Origin: Pirellulales bacterium
Lineage (GTDB): Bacteria; Planctomycetota; Planctomycetia; Pirellulales; JADZDJ01
Reading direction: 5' to 3'
DNA length: 64,000 bases
NCBI GenBank assembly: GCA_020851115.1
Contig: JADZDJ010000212.1
Span: 1-64,000 of the forward strand
In this document: positions 50,548 to 57,131 of the stretch, piece after piece
Numbering within the stretch: position 1 is the first letter of the stretch
Layout: every line of letters begins with the position of its first letter
Notes under the pieces: generated by a model
Seen by the model: the letters and a program-made list of their open reading frames with translations, nothing else
Told to the model about the DNA's origin: nothing
Databases searched by the model: none
Program-made: the position numbers and the translations under genes

Positions 50548-50914
50548 GGGGGCGAACTGGGTTCGACCGGATAGGTTGAAAGGGGAGGTGGCGTGCCGTG
50601 GTTGGTCAGCTGGCCACGTAAAAAGCCGACCAAAATCTCAGTTGCCAACAGCAACTTTGCTCTGGCCGCCTAGAGATAGGCGTCCCTGACTGAGGGCTTT
50701 CGTCGGAGAGGCCCAAAAGTCAGTTGCCAATTCCGAATCGCTGCGGGTCACCGCCTGGTATCCCCGCGGCTAAACCAGTTCCGGGCTAGCCTGCGAAGCA
50801 CCCCGGCGGTTGGGGACCAGCGAGTGAAAAACGTCCGTCAAATCATCCGTCTACGCACGTAGAAGCCACCCACTGAAATATCGCGGGACGCGGGTTCGAT
50901 TCCCGCCGCCTCCA
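50548..50914 (+). ncRNA. ssrA: Transfer-messenger RNA (tmRNA)
   Basis: About 367 nt. The 5' end GGGGGCGAACTGGGTTCGAC is the conserved tmRNA start, and its first seven bases pair with CGCCTCC near the 3' end, leaving A50914 as discriminator; CCA is not encoded. The T arm is GCGGGTTCGATTCCCGC. The tag reading frame is GCC AAC AGC AAC TTT GCT CTG GCC GCC TAG (50644-50673), giving ANSNFALAA, with the usual FALAA-type degradation signal. It rescues stalled ribosomes. An integrative element is inserted at its 3' end; the 3' end is restored by the attachment-site repeat. Confidence 0.93.
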
Positions 50915-52208
50915 TCCCCCCATATTGTAGGGTATCGCAAGAAGTCGCGAAACCTTGCAATTCGGGGGTTTTTTCATGCGCGGCCATTGTCGGTTGCGGC
51001 TCGTTGCGCGTCAAAACGAGCGCGTGCTGCGCCGCTTTTTGCGCCGCTTTTTCGTCGGCCGTTTCACCGCCCATTGTGGCCCGCTCAAAGTCGGCGTCGG
51101 TTACGTCCACGTAGTGTCGCATTGCCACGGCTTGGGTATTGCCCAACCACTTCGCGACAACCGCCAACGGGAATTGTCGGGCCAGGTCTGTTTCACAGCT
51201 TGCCCGCATCGAATGCCACAAGCGGGGCCAAGGTTCAAGACCGGCGCGACGGACAACCTTTTCCAGCGTGGTTCGGAGATTGGCGTTTCCCCATCCGGCC
51301 GGGCCTTGGGCGCGTCGCCGATATTCTTCGGGTGCGACATATTCGGCTCCATCGGGGGCTTTATCCCAGGCAGCTTCCAGGTGCGGTCGAATGGCGGGGA
51401 ATAGTGGAATCACGCGGTAGCTTCGGCCCGCCAAGTGTTGCGTCTTGGGGCTAGGCACGGTCAACCGCCCGCGTTCCCAATCCACATCTTGCCAGCGTAG
51501 GCTAAGGGCTTCACTCGGCACGCGCAAGCCGGCAAATCGGGATAGGGCAATGAGCAGCTTCCAAGTAACGTTAGGTGCGTGGTCAATCACACGTTGCACG
51601 TCGGCCGCAGGGACATAGGCGCGCCGCTCCGATGCGTCACCAGGCCGATGACGGACAAACTCAAACGGGTTTGCATCGACCAAACCTTGTCGCTTGGCGT
51701 GGGCAAAGAACATGCGGGCGTGTTGCAGCCGCTTGTGAATCGTGGTTGCCCGAAGGTTCGCCGCCAACATGGTTTGTCGAAACGCTTCGGCTTTGGCTGG
51801 CGTCACGTCGGCAAGTGGGCAATCGGCCCCCAGGAAACCCGTTAAGGCGTTGATAACCTGTCCCCAGGCAATCAGACTCGCCGGCTTGTAGTCGCCTTTG
51901 CGGGCCGCCAGCCAGGCTTGCAGAAACGGCCCCAGCGTTGCCGTCGCCTTCGTTTCTGGCATCGCAATCAGCCCGACCGCCGCAAGTTTCTTCGCCATGC
52001 GCGGTTCAAGGTCCGTCACCCACTGGGCCAACTCGCCTTCGACGGGGTGCTTGTAGTGGAGCGATTCGAGTAGTTGCTCCACGCGGTACTTGATGCCTTC
52101 GGCCGTGCGCTGGGAAACCTTGCCTAGCCGGATCGTCGGCCTCTTGCCGTCAGGAGCGACGAACAGAATCCGTCGGCTGCCGTTCTTGTCGCGCGCGATG
52201 CTGGCCAT
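50838..52208 (-). CDS. Tyrosine recombinase/integrase with C-terminus running into tmRNA
   Basis: 456 residues in the integrated state. N-terminal SAM-like core-binding domain about 90-185 (LGPFLQAWLAAR...TTIHKRLQHARMFFAHAKRQGLVDANPFEFV). Catalytic residues: Arg229 (AGLRVPSEAL), Lys255, His332 and Arg335 (WHSMRAS), Trp354 (WLGNTQ), Tyr366 (MRHYVDV). Residues from 432 on (MEAAGIEPASRDI...) are encoded by the att core and the tmRNA 3' region read backwards, so they are not native to the element. It starts three bases after the HTH gene stop. See the finding on the alternative C-terminus at the other end of the element. Confidence 0.92.
   Translation of the reverse strand: MASIARDKNGSRRILFVAPDGKRPTIRLGKVSQRTAEGIKYRVEQLLESLHYKHPVEGELAQWVTDLEPRMAKKLAAVGLIAMPETKATATLGPFLQAWLAARKGDYKPASLIAWGQVINALTGFLGADCPLADVTPAKAEAFRQTMLAANLRATTIHKRLQHARMFFAHAKRQGLVDANPFEFVRHRPGDASERRAYVPAADVQRVIDHAPNVTWKLLIALSRFAGLRVPSEALSLRWQDVDWERGRLTVPSPKTQHLAGRSYRVIPLFPAIRPHLEAAWDKAPDGAEYVAPEEYRRRAQGPAGWGNANLRTTLEKVVRRAGLEPWPRLWHSMRASCETDLARQFPLAVVAKWLGNTQAVAMRHYVDVTDADFERATMGGETADEKAAQKAAQHALVLTRNEPQPTMAAHEKTPELQGFATSCDTLQYGGMEAAGIEPASRDISVGGFYVRRRMI
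50894..50914 (+). repeat. Attachment-site core, tmRNA side
   Basis: 21 bases starting GTTCGATTCC and ending GCCGCCTCCA; the 3' half of the tmRNA T loop/T stem and acceptor. Identical to 57110-57130; the flanks differ on both sides. On the minus strand it encodes MEAAGIE of the integrase. Confidence 0.9.
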
Positions 52209-52211
52209 AGC

Positions 52212-52445
52212 TCACTTGCCTTTCGTTTTTTGGTTGCTCTTTTGCTTTGGGCCGACTAATTGCAGACCCAGATATTCGCCGATTTTGTCGCTGGCCTCTT
52301 GTCCCAGGCCACAAATTTTGTTTACGAACCGCGACAACTGCGCTTCGCTAATTCCCAAATCTTTCGAGATGCGATAGCGAGAAACGTCGGCGTTCAGAAT
52401 TGCTTCTCGCAGTTGCTCCGAAAGTAGCTTTGCTTTGTTGGTCAT
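52212..52445 (-). CDS. Small HTH DNA-binding regulator
   Basis: 77 residues. The helix-turn-helix is plain: LREAILNADVSRYRISKDLGISEAQLSRFVNKICGLGQEASDKIGEYLGLQL, an XRE/Cro-like fold. It lies directly upstream of the integrase gene and shares its transcript, so it probably controls integration. A palindrome sits in its own promoter. The basic tail is GPKQKSNQKTKGK. Transcription is predicted to begin at or next to its ATG. Confidence 0.8.
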   Translation of the reverse strand: MTNKAKLLSEQLREAILNADVSRYRISKDLGISEAQLSRFVNKICGLGQEASDKIGEYLGLQLVGPKQKSNQKTKGK

Positions 52446-52451
52446 AATGGC

Positions 52452-52480
52452 ATCCTAGAGAATACTTACGTAAATGTCAA
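52452..52480 (-). promoter_or_regulatory. Promoter of the HTH-integrase operon with palindromic operator
   Basis: On the minus strand: TTGACA (52480-52475), exactly 17 bases, TAGGAT (52457-52452). The spacer contains the perfect palindrome TTACGTAA (52466-52473), a good operator candidate for the HTH protein itself. The ATG of that gene is at 52445, seven bases from the -10 box, so the message may be leaderless. Confidence 0.65.
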
Positions 52481-52587
52481 GTGCATGGGTTTCACTCCGC
52501 TTTGCCAAAATTGGCAGCCACCATTTTGCGCCTATTGCGTCCGGGCGGGTCGGTTCGATGTTTGATACCCCCGAATTTCGCCGTTTT

Positions 52588-52818
52588 TCAATTTGCCGAC
52601 GGCTCGCCGTACCACCGAACGAATTTGATGAACCGGCGGCAACCGGCGCAATCCCGCCGAACGGATTGCCCATCGTGGATTGGCACATTTTGCCAGGTCG
52701 TAGAACCGCAACGACAAACCGGCTTGGCCTTTGGCGGCTTGGGCGGTTCCGTCTTAGCAGGCCGCACCGCAGGAGCGGAGCAAAGCCCTTCCAAAAACTT
52801 TTTGGCGTCGTACTGCAT
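52588..52818 (-). CDS. Small zinc-ribbon protein
   Basis: 76 residues. A proline/lysine linker (PPKPPKAKP) is followed by a four-cysteine ribbon: CRCGSTTWQNVPIHDGQSVRRDCAGCRRFIKF. It has the size and pattern of phage or element-encoded Zn-finger proteins. It lies in the replication part of the element. Function not known. Confidence 0.6.
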   Translation of the reverse strand: MQYDAKKFLEGLCSAPAVRPAKTEPPKPPKAKPVCRCGSTTWQNVPIHDGQSVRRDCAGCRRFIKFVRWYGEPSAN

Positions 52819-52872
52819 GTAAAAGCTCCGGCCTTGTGTTGTGCGAAACCGACCCCCTACCTACCCTAAAGA

Positions 52873-52920
52873 AATGACCCATAACGACCCAAACGACCCA
52901 AACGACCCATAACGACCCAT
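52873..52920 (+). repeat. Iteron-like direct repeats of AACGACCCA
   Basis: Five near-identical 9-10-base units (AATGACCCA, TAACGACCCA, AACGACCCA, AACGACCCA, TAACGACCCA) run head to tail. Two inverted units (TGGGTCATT twice, 52967-52984) lie 47 bp away inside the end of the ATPase gene. Possible replication origin of the element. Confidence 0.6.
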
Positions 52921-52929
52921 ATGGATTAA

Positions 52930-54657
52930 CTAAAACAGCCCATTATCGGCCGCGTTTCGCTCGCCGTGGGTCATTTGGGTCATTTGGGGCGCTTCCTCAA
53001 GCCCCAGGCCCAGGCCGTAGTTGGATTGCACCGATTGAAGGGACGCAAGTGCGTCGGGCAGATAAGCCCGCCGACCGCCGTACTTGTGGCTCGCGATGCC
53101 GTACCGCTTTAGCAGCCGCCCGATGCCATGCGCCGACCAACGGTCAAACATGTTCGGCTCGGCCATTTTCGCTTTTGCCAAAATGTCGCCAGGCGTCGGC
53201 CGCTCGCCGTTCCGTAGGGCGTCGGTCAAAATCCGCAGCAAAGTTTCATCCGTGTCGGGGGTCTGATCGTCGCGGCAAAGGTCTATGGTCGATAGTGCGT
53301 GTGCCTCGACCAGTCCGCGAAGCCCGTGTGCCCCGTGCGATTCAATCCACGCGGCCAGACTCAGCAGAGGTTGCCATAACTCATAGTCCCGCCCGCTCAT
53401 TGAAGGGCATACGTCCGTTCGCTCCGCCAGGTCTAGCCACGTCGCCCCATGCTCTAGAGCCAGTGAGTGAAGGTCATCGCGCAGCCGTTGCCACGCGGCC
53501 GGTTCGCCGTCGATGCGCCGTCGCGGTTTTTCGCTGCCGGGTGGCGCGCGAAACATCGTGACAGGGATGCACCTCGTCGCCAATGCGGTCGGCAGGCCCG
53601 CGATGCAAGCGAGTGCCTTCGGCCCGAAAACGTCGAATTCGATGGTGCGAAACGAATCTCCGACGGCTTCCAGCCTCGTCGCGCGCCCGCCGCGCTTGTA
53701 ACCGGCGAGCAGCATTGATAGCAGATCGGCCGTTGCCGGGTCGCTCCCTTGCCGCAATCGTTCGGCCTCGTCCAGCAGTAGCGTTCCTCCCCTGTCATTC
53801 ATCGTGCGAAACAGTGCCGCGGCCGTCAAATTAGACGATGCCAGTGGGCGAAACGTCAACCGCGACAGCACCTCAAACACTCGCGACTTTCCGCTTCCGG
53901 CAGGACCGCCAACGAACAAATACGGCACGGCGGGCCAGGCGTGATAAACATAGGTAAGCATCGCCCAGAGGGACAACGTTGCCGTAATGCCCGCTGCTTG
54001 CTCCGGCGGTAGGTCAACAAATAGGGCAAATTGCTCGCACAGTTGTGCAAATATCTCCGCCGGATCGGCAACCGGCGAGCCTCGCAGCCACTCCCGCCTT
54101 GCATCGGCCGACCAGCCGCAAACCGCGTTGCCGCTCGGCTGGCTCGGCTGTGGGTGGACGAACAGTCGACCGGCTGCCCCCAGTTCAACACTGCCGGTCA
54201 GCGTGCGGCATTCACGCCGCCCGTCGGCGTGGCGGACGTATATCAGCCACCGCCCGACGATATGACCGTCGATTTCCGAACGTACCGGAACCGATAAGCC
54301 CGATGCCAGCGGCGCGATGAACCGCTCCGGTCGCACGATTCGCGACGGGTCAACTTCGGGGTAGGTTGCAATTGTTGGCGGTGCGGTTTGCGATTGCGCG
54401 GCCTCGTTGGCCAGAGCCAATTCCAATGCCGCGTCGGCCGCGTCGGCCACCGCGATAATCTGCCCATCGACCGCGCCTAGCTCGGCAGGATCGACCGCCA
54501 ACTTATTCGCCAGCGCCGCGATGAAGCGCCGACGGCTCGCTGCGCTGTTCGGGTCGAACGAATCGCGGTAGACCACTTCGCCGGCCCGCGATTCAACAAT
54601 CCGCTGTGGCTTGCCGTTCGATGGGGCGACCGACAACATGATAGCAGGAATGCTCAT
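52930..54657 (-). CDS. P-loop ATPase, primase/helicase-like (DUF3631-type C-terminus)
   Basis: 575 residues. Walker A is FVGGPAGSGKSRVFEVLSRL, Walker B GGTLLLDEAERLRQ, and a sensor-like segment GGRATRLEAVGDSFRTIEFDVFGPKALACIAGLPTALATRCIPVTMFR follows. The section after it (PAAWQRLRDDLHSLALEHG...CPSMSGRDYELWQPLLSLAAWIE) follows the DUF3631 pattern found at the C-terminus of virus and plasmid primase-helicases. The first 200 residues are not recognised. It should be the replication initiator or helicase of the element. The ATGA overlap couples it to the DnaB-N gene. Confidence 0.75.
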   Translation of the reverse strand: MSIPAIMLSVAPSNGKPQRIVESRAGEVVYRDSFDPNSAASRRRFIAALANKLAVDPAELGAVDGQIIAVADAADAALELALANEAAQSQTAPPTIATYPEVDPSRIVRPERFIAPLASGLSVPVRSEIDGHIVGRWLIYVRHADGRRECRTLTGSVELGAAGRLFVHPQPSQPSGNAVCGWSADARREWLRGSPVADPAEIFAQLCEQFALFVDLPPEQAAGITATLSLWAMLTYVYHAWPAVPYLFVGGPAGSGKSRVFEVLSRLTFRPLASSNLTAAALFRTMNDRGGTLLLDEAERLRQGSDPATADLLSMLLAGYKRGGRATRLEAVGDSFRTIEFDVFGPKALACIAGLPTALATRCIPVTMFRAPPGSEKPRRRIDGEPAAWQRLRDDLHSLALEHGATWLDLAERTDVCPSMSGRDYELWQPLLSLAAWIESHGAHGLRGLVEAHALSTIDLCRDDQTPDTDETLLRILTDALRNGERPTPGDILAKAKMAEPNMFDRWSAHGIGRLLKRYGIASHKYGGRRAYLPDALASLQSVQSNYGLGLGLEEAPQMTQMTHGERNAADNGLF

Positions 54658-55151
54658 CGTCGGCCCCCTTTCCGCGCGGCCTTCGTGCGGTGGGCCAAAG
54701 CGCGTTCCGTTGCGCGGCGGACTGCGGGCGACACGCTCGGCCCCGGCTCGCAGCGGTGCGCCGCCTGGATGAGGCTGACGCCGCGCTCCATCGCGTGCCG
54801 TCGGCGCGACATCTCCGCGACTCGCGCGACATAGTGAGGCAGACTTATCGCAGTGGGCGACATCGTAAATAGCTCTGCCAGCGCCGCGGCCGATACGCCG
54901 CGTTCGGGGTCGTACTCTCCGCCGTCGCGAAGCTCGCCGACCAGCAGCGTTGCGTCGGGGGGTAGACCGCGACCACGCAACCGCAACATCGCGGTGTATA
55001 TCGTCCGCAGCGCGTCATCGGTCAGATCGGCCGGCTCCAGCGCGGCCGCCACGTCGGCGATGCGCTCGGGGGCCAACAAAATGACCCCCAAAATCGCCCG
55101 CTCGGCATCAATATCGCGCGGTGGCGCGCGGTCCAATGGGTCGGATTTCAT
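54654..55151 (-). CDS. DnaB-like helicase N-terminal domain protein
   Basis: 165 residues. The N-terminal domain of replicative helicase DnaB is seen in PPRDIDAERAILGVILLAPERIADVAAALEPADLTDDALRTIYTAMLRLRGRGLPPDATLLVGEL and SAAALAELFTMSPTAISLPHYVARVAEMSRRR. The RecA-like motor domain is absent, and a basic tail follows. It may act as adaptor recruiting host helicase or primase, or as partner of the P-loop ATPase whose gene it overlaps by four bases. Confidence 0.75.
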   Translation of the reverse strand: MKSDPLDRAPPRDIDAERAILGVILLAPERIADVAAALEPADLTDDALRTIYTAMLRLRGRGLPPDATLLVGELRDGGEYDPERGVSAAALAELFTMSPTAISLPHYVARVAEMSRRRHAMERGVSLIQAAHRCEPGPSVSPAVRRATERALAHRTKAARKGGRR

Positions 55152-55366
55152 CGCTCGCCCCCCTTTGCCGCGTCGGTCTGCTGGCTCAGCCAGGCCTGTA
55201 GGTCAGCCATGGGGTACAGCACAGACTGCCGCTTGCCGCGACCAATCCGCAGGCAGGGGATCGGGCCGCGAGGAGCCGATAGGCCCCAGAGGGTGCGGGC
55301 ACTGATGCCCAGGGCCTTCGCCGCGTCGTGGGGCCGTAGGGCCAGGGTAGTAGGTGTCGTCGTCAT
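55148..55366 (-). CDS. AlpA/excisionase-like DNA-binding protein
   Basis: 72 residues from the ATG at 55366 (MTTTPTTLALRPHDAAKALGIS). The HTH reads RPHDAAKALGISARTLWGLSAPRGPIPCLRIGRGKRQSVLYPMADLQAWLSQQ, the winged-helix pattern of AlpA and MerR-type excisionases. It probably bends att DNA for excision or regulates the replication genes; its stop overlaps the DnaB-N start. Confidence 0.75.
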   Translation of the reverse strand: MTTTPTTLALRPHDAAKALGISARTLWGLSAPRGPIPCLRIGRGKRQSVLYPMADLQAWLSQQTDAAKGGER

Positions 55367-55514
55367 CTCGGTCTCTCCATCGGGCCGCCGGCCGCGAAGT
55401 GCGGCCTGCATAACCGTTGGCGCAGCGTTCCGTAAACGAAAGGGAACAGTGGTGCAGTCGCAACAAGACGCCCAGAAATAGCCGGGCTAGCGCGAAAAAG
55501 AAAAATATTTGCGC

Positions 55515-55535
55515 GTTCCCTAGGAGATAGGGAAC
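55515..55535. promoter_or_regulatory. Inverted repeat, operator or terminator
   Basis: GTTCCCTA, five-base loop, TAGGGAAC (8 of 8 paired). On the minus strand it follows the 260-aa gene by 18 bases, and an AT-rich tract with T-runs lies downstream, so it may terminate that gene or control the AlpA-like gene. Confidence 0.5.
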
Positions 55536-55552
55536 GATGGAACACCCGCCCG

Positions 55553-56335
55553 TTATTCGTCCTGATTCATTTTGTCGGGCGTTCGGGCGTCATAGAAATC
55601 GCGGGGTTGGAACTCGCCGTTCAGTGCTTTCATCGCCGCCACAAGCCGGGGCAAATTGCAGCACAGCATTCGATACTTGGCGTGCCCTTGAAACTGATGG
55701 GTAAAAAATGCCGACGCGGTACGCTTTGCCACTCCCGCCAGCCGGGCCAGTTCGTTGTTGCCGATGGGTTCCAGATTCAGGCAACCGCCGTCGGCGTACC
55801 TGTGGTGTCTCGTCAGAGCCGCAATCAGCTTCACCCGACCTTCGCCGCGTTCGGTACTCCTTTTCGGTTTTATGGGCGTTGAAGTATCGCTTGCGGCTTC
55901 CGCTTCATCAACAAGCAATTTCACTTCGCCCTGATACGTCGCCCAGTGGTTGCGCAACTCCGGGACGCGGTCGCTCATCAATACACCATACCGCAGCGCC
56001 AATCGGTGTTCGTCTAAAACCGACCGATCATCGCCCAACAACGGCAGCGATGGAAGCTCCCGCCACGGGTCAATTCGCTCGCTCCAGACGACAAGGGAAT
56101 CGTAAATTGCCGCCAACAGTGCCAGCCGCTCGTCGTACGTGAGTGCGACATGTGAAAACGGGACCGGAATCACACCAGCCTCAAAGCCATCGTCATCGAG
56201 GTGGATGGGTGGATCGCTCGCCCATCGCCGAACGGCGGCGCGCCACCAGTCCCGATTGTCCTTCACCAACGGAACCAGCCGATGATAGACCTCATTCAGC
56301 GGGTCGTTGTCGATCACGAGAACCTGCCTTTCCAT
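55553..56335 (-). CDS. Element-encoded hypothetical protein with C-terminal HTH
   Basis: 260 residues. The first 150 are acidic and helical without a known pattern (WWRAAVRRWASDPPIHLDDDGFEAG, YDERLALLAAIYDSLVVW). Near the C-terminus a winged-helix-like segment is seen: VKLIAALTRHHRYADGGCLNLEPIGNNELARLAGVAKRTASAFFTHQFQGHAKY. Likely a DNA-binding protein of the element, perhaps in replication control. Not recognised beyond that. Confidence 0.65.
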   Translation of the reverse strand: MERQVLVIDNDPLNEVYHRLVPLVKDNRDWWRAAVRRWASDPPIHLDDDGFEAGVIPVPFSHVALTYDERLALLAAIYDSLVVWSERIDPWRELPSLPLLGDDRSVLDEHRLALRYGVLMSDRVPELRNHWATYQGEVKLLVDEAEAASDTSTPIKPKRSTERGEGRVKLIAALTRHHRYADGGCLNLEPIGNNELARLAGVAKRTASAFFTHQFQGHAKYRMLCCNLPRLVAAMKALNGEFQPRDFYDARTPDKMNQDE

Positions 56336-56542
56336 CGGGCCGGACCACCGCAGCGCGCGGAAGGCAGAAAACGCGCCGCCGATGGTCCGCGTTAGGCCAC
56401 GTCACCCGTCGGCTCGCGGCCACCCTTGAAAACAACAATAACAACGTTTGTTCGCCGGTCAACCCGGCTGCCCCCGCGATGGAGGGCGAGAAATTCCTCG
56501 CGCACGCGCACGCGTACTTCGACATCAACCAATAACTAAAAC

Positions 56543-56779
56543 CTACAAGCCACCATCAATTTCCGCCTTTTCTCCGAGCCGCTGTCTCAGTTCAAATACC
56601 GCCCTCCAAGCTTCCGCCGCAGCGCTCATGGCCGCGCGCCACGACTCGCACAGCAGGTCTCCACTGGGCCGCTCATCATACTGCCTCGGCATGAGATCAT
56701 AAAGATCGTCGCAGAAGGCATGGATTCGGACCGTCAGTTCATCGACCCTCTTAAACTTCGTTCGCGGTCGACCTGGCAT
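56543..56779 (-). CDS. Small helical element protein
   Basis: 78 residues (MPGRPRTKFKRVDELTVRIHAFCDDLYDLMPRQYDERPSGDLLCESW...). The N-terminus has the AT-hook-like GRPR motif. The rest is two helices with LYDLMPRQYDERP. Similar small proteins, as I remember them, are common in planctomycete integrated elements. Function unknown. Confidence 0.6.
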   Translation of the reverse strand: MPGRPRTKFKRVDELTVRIHAFCDDLYDLMPRQYDERPSGDLLCESWRAAMSAAAEAWRAVFELRQRLGEKAEIDGGL

Positions 56780-56927
56780 GATTGCAGCTCCCCATTTTCC
56801 CCCTGGTTAAGATTGTAAACCCGCATCCGGCGAGGTTTAAATAATTAAATATATAGGCGGCAATGCGCCCGCGGGGTGTGGTAAAAATATCTTAGGTCTG
56901 GGGCCCCCATGCCCCACCCCCCTCCCG

Positions 56928-57131
56928 TCACACGCTGCACCCACCGATGATGCCCATAACCGCCTCTTTGACTTCCGCCGGCAGGTCTGGCCAAGCATCG
57001 ACCACAGCCGCCAAATCAGGGTCCAGCGGGGCTTTTTGTGCGCCGAGTGCGCCGCTTTTTGCGCCGCTCTGGTTGCCAACCCCGTTATTTCCCGACGATT
57101 GCGGCCCAAGTTCGATTCCCGCCGCCTCCAC
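56928..57131 (-). other. Alternative integrase C-terminus, displaced by integration
   Basis: An open frame of 67 codons begins at the att core (MEAAGIE, core-encoded, GTG start only by chance) and continues LGPQSSGNNGVGNQSG then AKSGALGAQKAPLDPDLAAVV and DAWPDLPAEVKEAVMGIIGG. It is in the same frame across the core as the integrase at the other end. When the element is excised the two halves would join, giving an integrase of 498 residues. The amphipathic DLAAVVDAWPDLPAEVKEAVMGII segment is protein-like. In the integrated state it has no start of its own. Confidence 0.7.
57110..57130 (+). repeat. Attachment-site core, distal side
   Basis: Identical 21-bp copy of 50894-50914. The sequence before it does not rebuild a T stem, so this is only the displaced tmRNA tail, not a tRNA or second tmRNA. 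Confidence 0.9.

Follow-up and report, generated by a model that had tools for sequence, protein, structure and literature searches.

The closest described parallel to the locus analyzed here is the Myxococcus phage Mx8, the sole integrase precedent found in our literature search (PMC6070905). According to that review, int acquires a different 3' end when Mx8 integrates and its activity is modified, not lost, and the altered prophage enzyme has been reported to be active with changed specificity (Tojo 1996 and Magrini 1999, in PMC6070905). Archaeal suicidal integrases of the SSV type likewise have the att site within an integrase gene that is altered by integration, the gene being split and its catalytic part separated (PMC8371274). 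In the integration-dependent immunity of mycobacteriophage BPs, attP lies in a coding gene and the phage and prophage C-termini differ; that gene is a repressor, from which a degradation tag is removed (PMC4557955). Finally, Islander-type integrases of tRNA and tmRNA islands target the 3' end of the gene, with the displaced 3' fragment at the far end and the integrase beside the restored gene, a definition that does not include an integrase frame continuing across the two att sites into a conserved tail (PMC4383910).

Here we analyzed a 64,000-nt stretch of DNA from a Pirellulales bacterium (contig JADZDJ010000212.1; hereafter the window). First, we found one tmRNA gene within the window by both ARAGORN and Rfam (50548-50914, plus strand; RF00023, 143 bits), which is the attB target and is intact after integration of an element of about 6.2 kb (50915-57130) in this planctomycete chromosome segment. 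The last 21 nt of the tmRNA, GTTCGATTCCCGCCGCCTCCA, constitute the att core on the integrase side (attL, 50894-50914), and an exact direct repeat, 100% identical and at a spacing of 6216 nt, constitutes the core at the distal end (attR, 57110-57130; the end given initially, 57131, was one nucleotide too far). With this 3'-end repeat at both ends, an integrase inside and the tmRNA whole, the locus is a tRNA/tmRNA genomic island. Two genomes of the same family have a tmRNA without an adjoining copy of the element, and their flanks are not syntenic with those found here. All genes of the element are on the minus strand. Besides the integrase at the tmRNA end and small unknown genes, they encode a small HTH protein upstream of the integrase (52212-52445; weak HTH_26 and repressor matches), a 575-aa protein with the Walker A motif GPAGSGKS that is a probable replication helicase (52930-54657; PHROG 21086, 1.6e-7), a replication protein with a DnaB N-terminal domain (54654-55151; PF00772, 1.6e-18), and an HTH_17 excisionase-like protein that is a candidate directionality factor (55148-55411; Pfam HTH_17, 1.8e-6; PHROG 66 excisionase, 1.3e-5). 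Short GACCCATAACGACCCA-type repeats at 52872-52919 of the window, upstream of the integrase and HTH genes, are possibly an origin or a regulatory region.

The element-encoded part of the integrase (50915-52208) matched Pfam PF00589 (2.6e-11) and PHROG 1 integrase (2.3e-37), and it has the catalytic residues of a tyrosine recombinase: R229, K255, H332, R335 and Y366, invariant among 15 homologues, and N357 at the H/W position, likewise invariant. All of them are upstream of the core, whose codons start at 432. In the integrated state the reading frame (50838-52208, 456 aa) crosses the left core, where it codes for MEAAGIE, and reaches a stop 18 codons further on, within the tmRNA gene. The end of the protein (50838-50893) is hence host-encoded, reading PASRDISVGGFYVRRRMI followed by a stop, as the initial annotation had proposed; across the family, such integrated-state ends are unconserved host peptides. 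The AlphaFold model of the integrase showed order to about residue 400 and disorder beyond. Because the catalytic residues precede the core and the model loses order only after about residue 400, the integrated and circle forms are both predicted to retain the whole catalytic enzyme. Thus, in contrast with the SSV-type integrases, Y366 stays on the element's side of the core, the catalytic domain remains whole and only the tail is swapped.

At the distal end, the right core continues in the integrase frame into LGPQSSGNNGVGNQSGAKSGALGAQKAPLDPDLAAVVDAWPDLPAEVKEAVMGIIGGCSV and a stop, which is the element's own integrase tail of 60 residues (56928-57109, minus strand), with a conserved helical hairpin, DPDLAAVVDAWPDLPAEVKEAVMGII, and the end DPDLAAVVDAWPDLPAEVKEAVMGIIGGCSV. 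When the cores were joined as in the circle, 438 residues from the ATG and the 60 of the tail gave an integrase of 498 aa. The initial annotation had claimed a core inside the minus-strand integrase frame coding MEAAGIE, the same core and frame leading into a 60-residue segment, and a 498-residue circle integrase with the element's own tail. Each of these held up, with two identical cores in one frame and neither a stop nor a frame break in the joined sequence, and the swap of the tail on integration is confirmed. In the model, which was made for the element's tail alone (integrase and tail were modelled separately as two halves, not as the joined 498-aa protein), helices at 31-38 and 45-55 formed a helical hairpin with a pLDDT of about 87. 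In contrast with BPs, the gene concerned is the integrase and the tail is a helical domain, and no common ssrA-like motif could be seen by eye at the tail ends.

The likeness to Mx8 is closer. In both cases the attP core is inside the int frame and integration gives the gene a host-derived 3' end, and the Mx8 Int end has a tRNA-complement-like peptide, STGLEPV, with tandem 11-nt repeats upstream of it inside int. However, the tail profile had no match to Mx8 Int (domain E 0.16, in the wrong region), and the tail described here is a domain conserved across a phylum, in small elements as well as phages, and at many tRNAs and tmRNA.

The initial annotation had suggested that the distal tail might be a conserved integrase end, a proposal it would have abandoned had homologues never carried it. 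Homologues do carry it, and alignment of homologues, a phylum survey and phage contigs all agreed in this respect. The helical domain has the consensus PELAxxVxAWPxLPxxxxxxILxLV and was present in 82 of the 392 Planctomycetota genomes that made up the survey sample; in a separate count, 35 of the 58 nearest relatives had it. The att targets across the family included tmRNA and tRNAs for Arg, Ser, Val, Met, Glu, Ile, Ala, Asn and Leu. A search of the element's own genome returned eight copies at E<1e-5, and an alignment-based search nine at E<1e-6. This 5.2-Mb assembly contains at least nine tail-bearing elements or remnants (contigs C78, C106, C133, C134, C146, C162, C212, C225 and C298), and several of these contigs end at the elements, which suggests repeats breaking the assembly. 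Comparison of the tail with Pfam, PHROGs and NCBIfam revealed no known family, plasmid records gave no match to it, and annotated phages yielded distant integrases only. A PADLOC scan gave no hits. Viral contigs gave no match with the tail alone as query, whereas the integrase alignment did find matches. Several integrases found through their tails matched the profile only distantly (E 1e-10 to 1e-17), and the design is therefore common to more than one integrase lineage. Two further observations were made. An XRE-type HTH regulator in L107 (9462-10115) ends in a tail-like IDGWHGLPAEMKVDIAAMVRAA (E 5e-5), perhaps a hint that the tail is an interaction hairpin. In L020 and L022, both labelled Candidatus Kuenenia, integrases 62-63% identical to that of the element adjoin tmRNA, a closeness to the copies of other Planctomycetes that suggests misbinning or recent transfer.

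We then considered whether the join between core and tail is open throughout the family. Among the elements retrieved through their integrase, 24 had an att pair, and in 23 of these the integrase frame met no stop in the first 56 codons beyond the core (a few of the 24 were first fetched through the tail, and because some share ancestry they do not count as 24 independent events). When the same elements were read in the other two frames, 10 of 48 readings reached this length. The open tails of the 23 elements spanned 56-136 codons, mostly 56-81 with a median of about 63, and the targets of the integrase-first elements were tmRNA and at least eight tRNAs. L077, the one element that differs, keeps the frame but has a stop between core and tail. 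It is an array with three identical att cores (7117, 9910 and 11944) and two tails sharing the same in-frame stop, and this lineage is perhaps decaying. In L083 and L094 the integrase apparently crosses a tRNA core (apparently tRNA-Leu) in the sense direction, opposite to the other elements, with the tail still in frame. Starting from the tails instead, we looked at the matching core downstream: in 29 of about 35 cases an ORF of 410-547 aa, in frame with the tail, led into it, and most of the other cases were array copies or partial elements. Complements of tRNA 3' ends, among them GIRTHD, GLEP and SNP, stood in frame ahead of many tail copies. No stop separated motif and tail in 67 of the 72 tails with a recognised upstream T-loop complement, a short pattern of which some matches may be due to chance. 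The motif occurred in all three codon phases, with the tail following, and thus it is not the tRNA sequence that dictates the frame.

Comparison of 21 disjoint tail pairs over the 28-codon domain revealed 147, 99 and 211 differences at codon positions 1, 2 and 3, respectively (p=9e-9 for the third-position excess), a pattern that shows protein-level selection on the tail domain. Pooled tail pairs gave a pS of 0.58 and a pN of 0.30, values that are biased by the choice of pairs according to protein identity. Close pairs differed at few positions, and their individual dN/dS values ranged up to above 1, in part because arm sites keep synonymous positions fixed.

These candidate arm-type integrase sites are found to either side of the core. 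On the P side (51028-51060), GCGGCGCAAAA repeats code for AAQKAAQ at 113 nt from the core; on the P' side (57037-57068), the same DNA in another frame codes for SGAKSGA at 41 nt from the core, and the two are identical at 21 of 21 positions. As the DNA matches while the residues differ, the repeats appear to be DNA sites, most likely arm-type sites of the integrase. Most elements had a short repeat on both core sides, typically about 98-148 nt away in the direction of the integrase and 38-54 nt away towards the tail, with several elements not exceeding shuffled controls. The repeats were alike within an element and unlike between elements (GCGGCGCAAAA here, GGTGGTGCAA in L048, GCGACGCA in L174). 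If this reading is correct, attP and both of its arms are inside the integrase gene. The tail-side repeats could also mean that the distal region is conserved for the P' arm sites of attR and attP, its open frame being incidental. However, the conserved helical domain extends beyond the repeats and has changed mostly at third positions, and we regard this explanation as very improbable; as a full account it is refuted by the codon-position pattern and by the frame test, in which 23 of 24 frames were open and the other frames mostly were not.

The initial annotation had also proposed two protein forms, one for each state of the element, and naturally contiguous genes, found in a pair of phage contigs and at a tandem junction, lend support to this idea. 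In L203 and L204, IMG/VR contigs of about 35.7 kb that come from different samples and are identical where compared, integrase, core and tail make up one uninterrupted gene (tail E 5e-16). In L204, several kilobases of other genes flank the int gene on both sides and a large terminase is encoded about 17 kb away. Such surroundings are as expected of a phage genome rather than of the end of an integrated copy; both contigs were classed as linear. The single gene of the free form was thus seen in relatives and not in this very element. In one 556-aa ORF at the tandem junction of L153, a partial integrase (profile positions 211-418) is continuous with the tail of the next element. L211, which has VINPTQ repeats on both sides of the core and an end without a match to the tail profile, looks like another contiguous form. 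More distantly related integrases of other viral contigs (L207-L210 and L215-L241) stop soon after the catalytic domain, with neither a tail nor a tRNA-like peptide; catalysis in the wider family thus does not require the tail, and these integrases offer a useful outgroup for timing its gain.

Some tails have an in-frame ATG, GTG or TTG upstream, and the distal end of an integrated element might thus express the tail by itself, as a small protein such as a directionality factor. The phages and the tandem junction carry the tail fused, which makes this extremely unlikely. A start-codon scan also led us to reject a separate gene: 42 of 89 tails had no in-frame ATG, no start position was conserved, and 10 of 89 had no start codon of any kind between the upstream stop and the domain.

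The swap itself, the open join across the family, the selection on the tail and the contiguous phage genes are all visible in the sequences, and the tail swap is well supported. We propose, as the probable reading, an integrative element with attP (core and arms) in the last third of int, whose tailed form, made only by the circle, is tuned for integration, and in which loss of the tail stabilises the integrated state. The gene in the circle would comprise, in order, the catalytic domain, the P-arm repeats, the core, the P'-arm repeats and the conserved tail of two helices, 498 aa in all. In the integrated copy, where recombination with the 3' end of the tmRNA has cut int at the core, the whole catalytic enzyme is kept and ends in a short host-encoded peptide. 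The tail is left as a stub at the far end, with no conserved start codon of its own, until excision restores the joined gene. In line with the initial annotation's idea that the two forms could bias the enzyme to integration or to excision, we infer that the tailed enzyme would be suited to attP x attB integration, whereas excision from the stabilised integrated state would be carried out by the tail-less enzyme together with the HTH_17 factor. As the enzyme carries the tail only in the free element, the role for which the tail is selected must lie in that state, and most likely the tail favours integration by the circle-made enzyme.

Two other explanations accept the swap and differ on its consequence. 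The tail might be needed for any useful activity, so that integration inactivates the enzyme and excision relies on the enzyme of another element or on a superinfecting copy. This would suit a selected tail that gives way to unconserved host peptides; nine tails in one genome make help in trans possible, and archaeal suicidal integrases are maintained by such help (PMC8371274). On the other hand, the integrated form keeps all catalytic residues and modelled domains, distant relatives exist without a tail, and the element encodes a candidate excisionase, so that we consider self-inactivation unlikely. Alternatively, attP may overlap int for compactness, with arm-like sites on both sides inside the gene so that int and attP move as one module; the tail would then aid folding or stability, and the two forms would not differ in direction. 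In a 1999 study of Mx8 the last 30 residues of Int were reportedly dispensable for integration, and a tail need not matter in that phage. A mere by-product is nevertheless difficult to reconcile with a tail that occurs phylum-wide at many tRNA targets, is lost at each integration and acts only in the free state, and we judge it improbable. Our preferred reading remains the tailed, circle-made enzyme tuned for integration.

The principle is known from Mx8; what is new is that the tail is conserved and spread over a whole phylum, and that the arm sites are coding. Our literature search, with most subscription journals outside its reach, found no report of the swap in Planctomycetota or of a conserved tail. 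More tentatively, and with somewhat less than even confidence, tyrosine integrases across the phylum may have a domain devoted to integration that the recombination event itself switches off, the C-terminus reading the state of the element and giving direction without, or besides, a directionality factor. State-dependent integrase ends were known experimentally from Myxococcus phages, and a conserved, phylum-wide tail turns this odd case into a general design, with many natural pairs of free and integrated forms for testing how a tyrosine integrase gets its direction. The swap accounts as well for the tRNA-antisense peptides (GIRTHD, GLEP) found where integrases of this group end, and it means that, in this group, the annotated C-terminus of an integrase and the small ORF at the end of an island are two halves of one protein.
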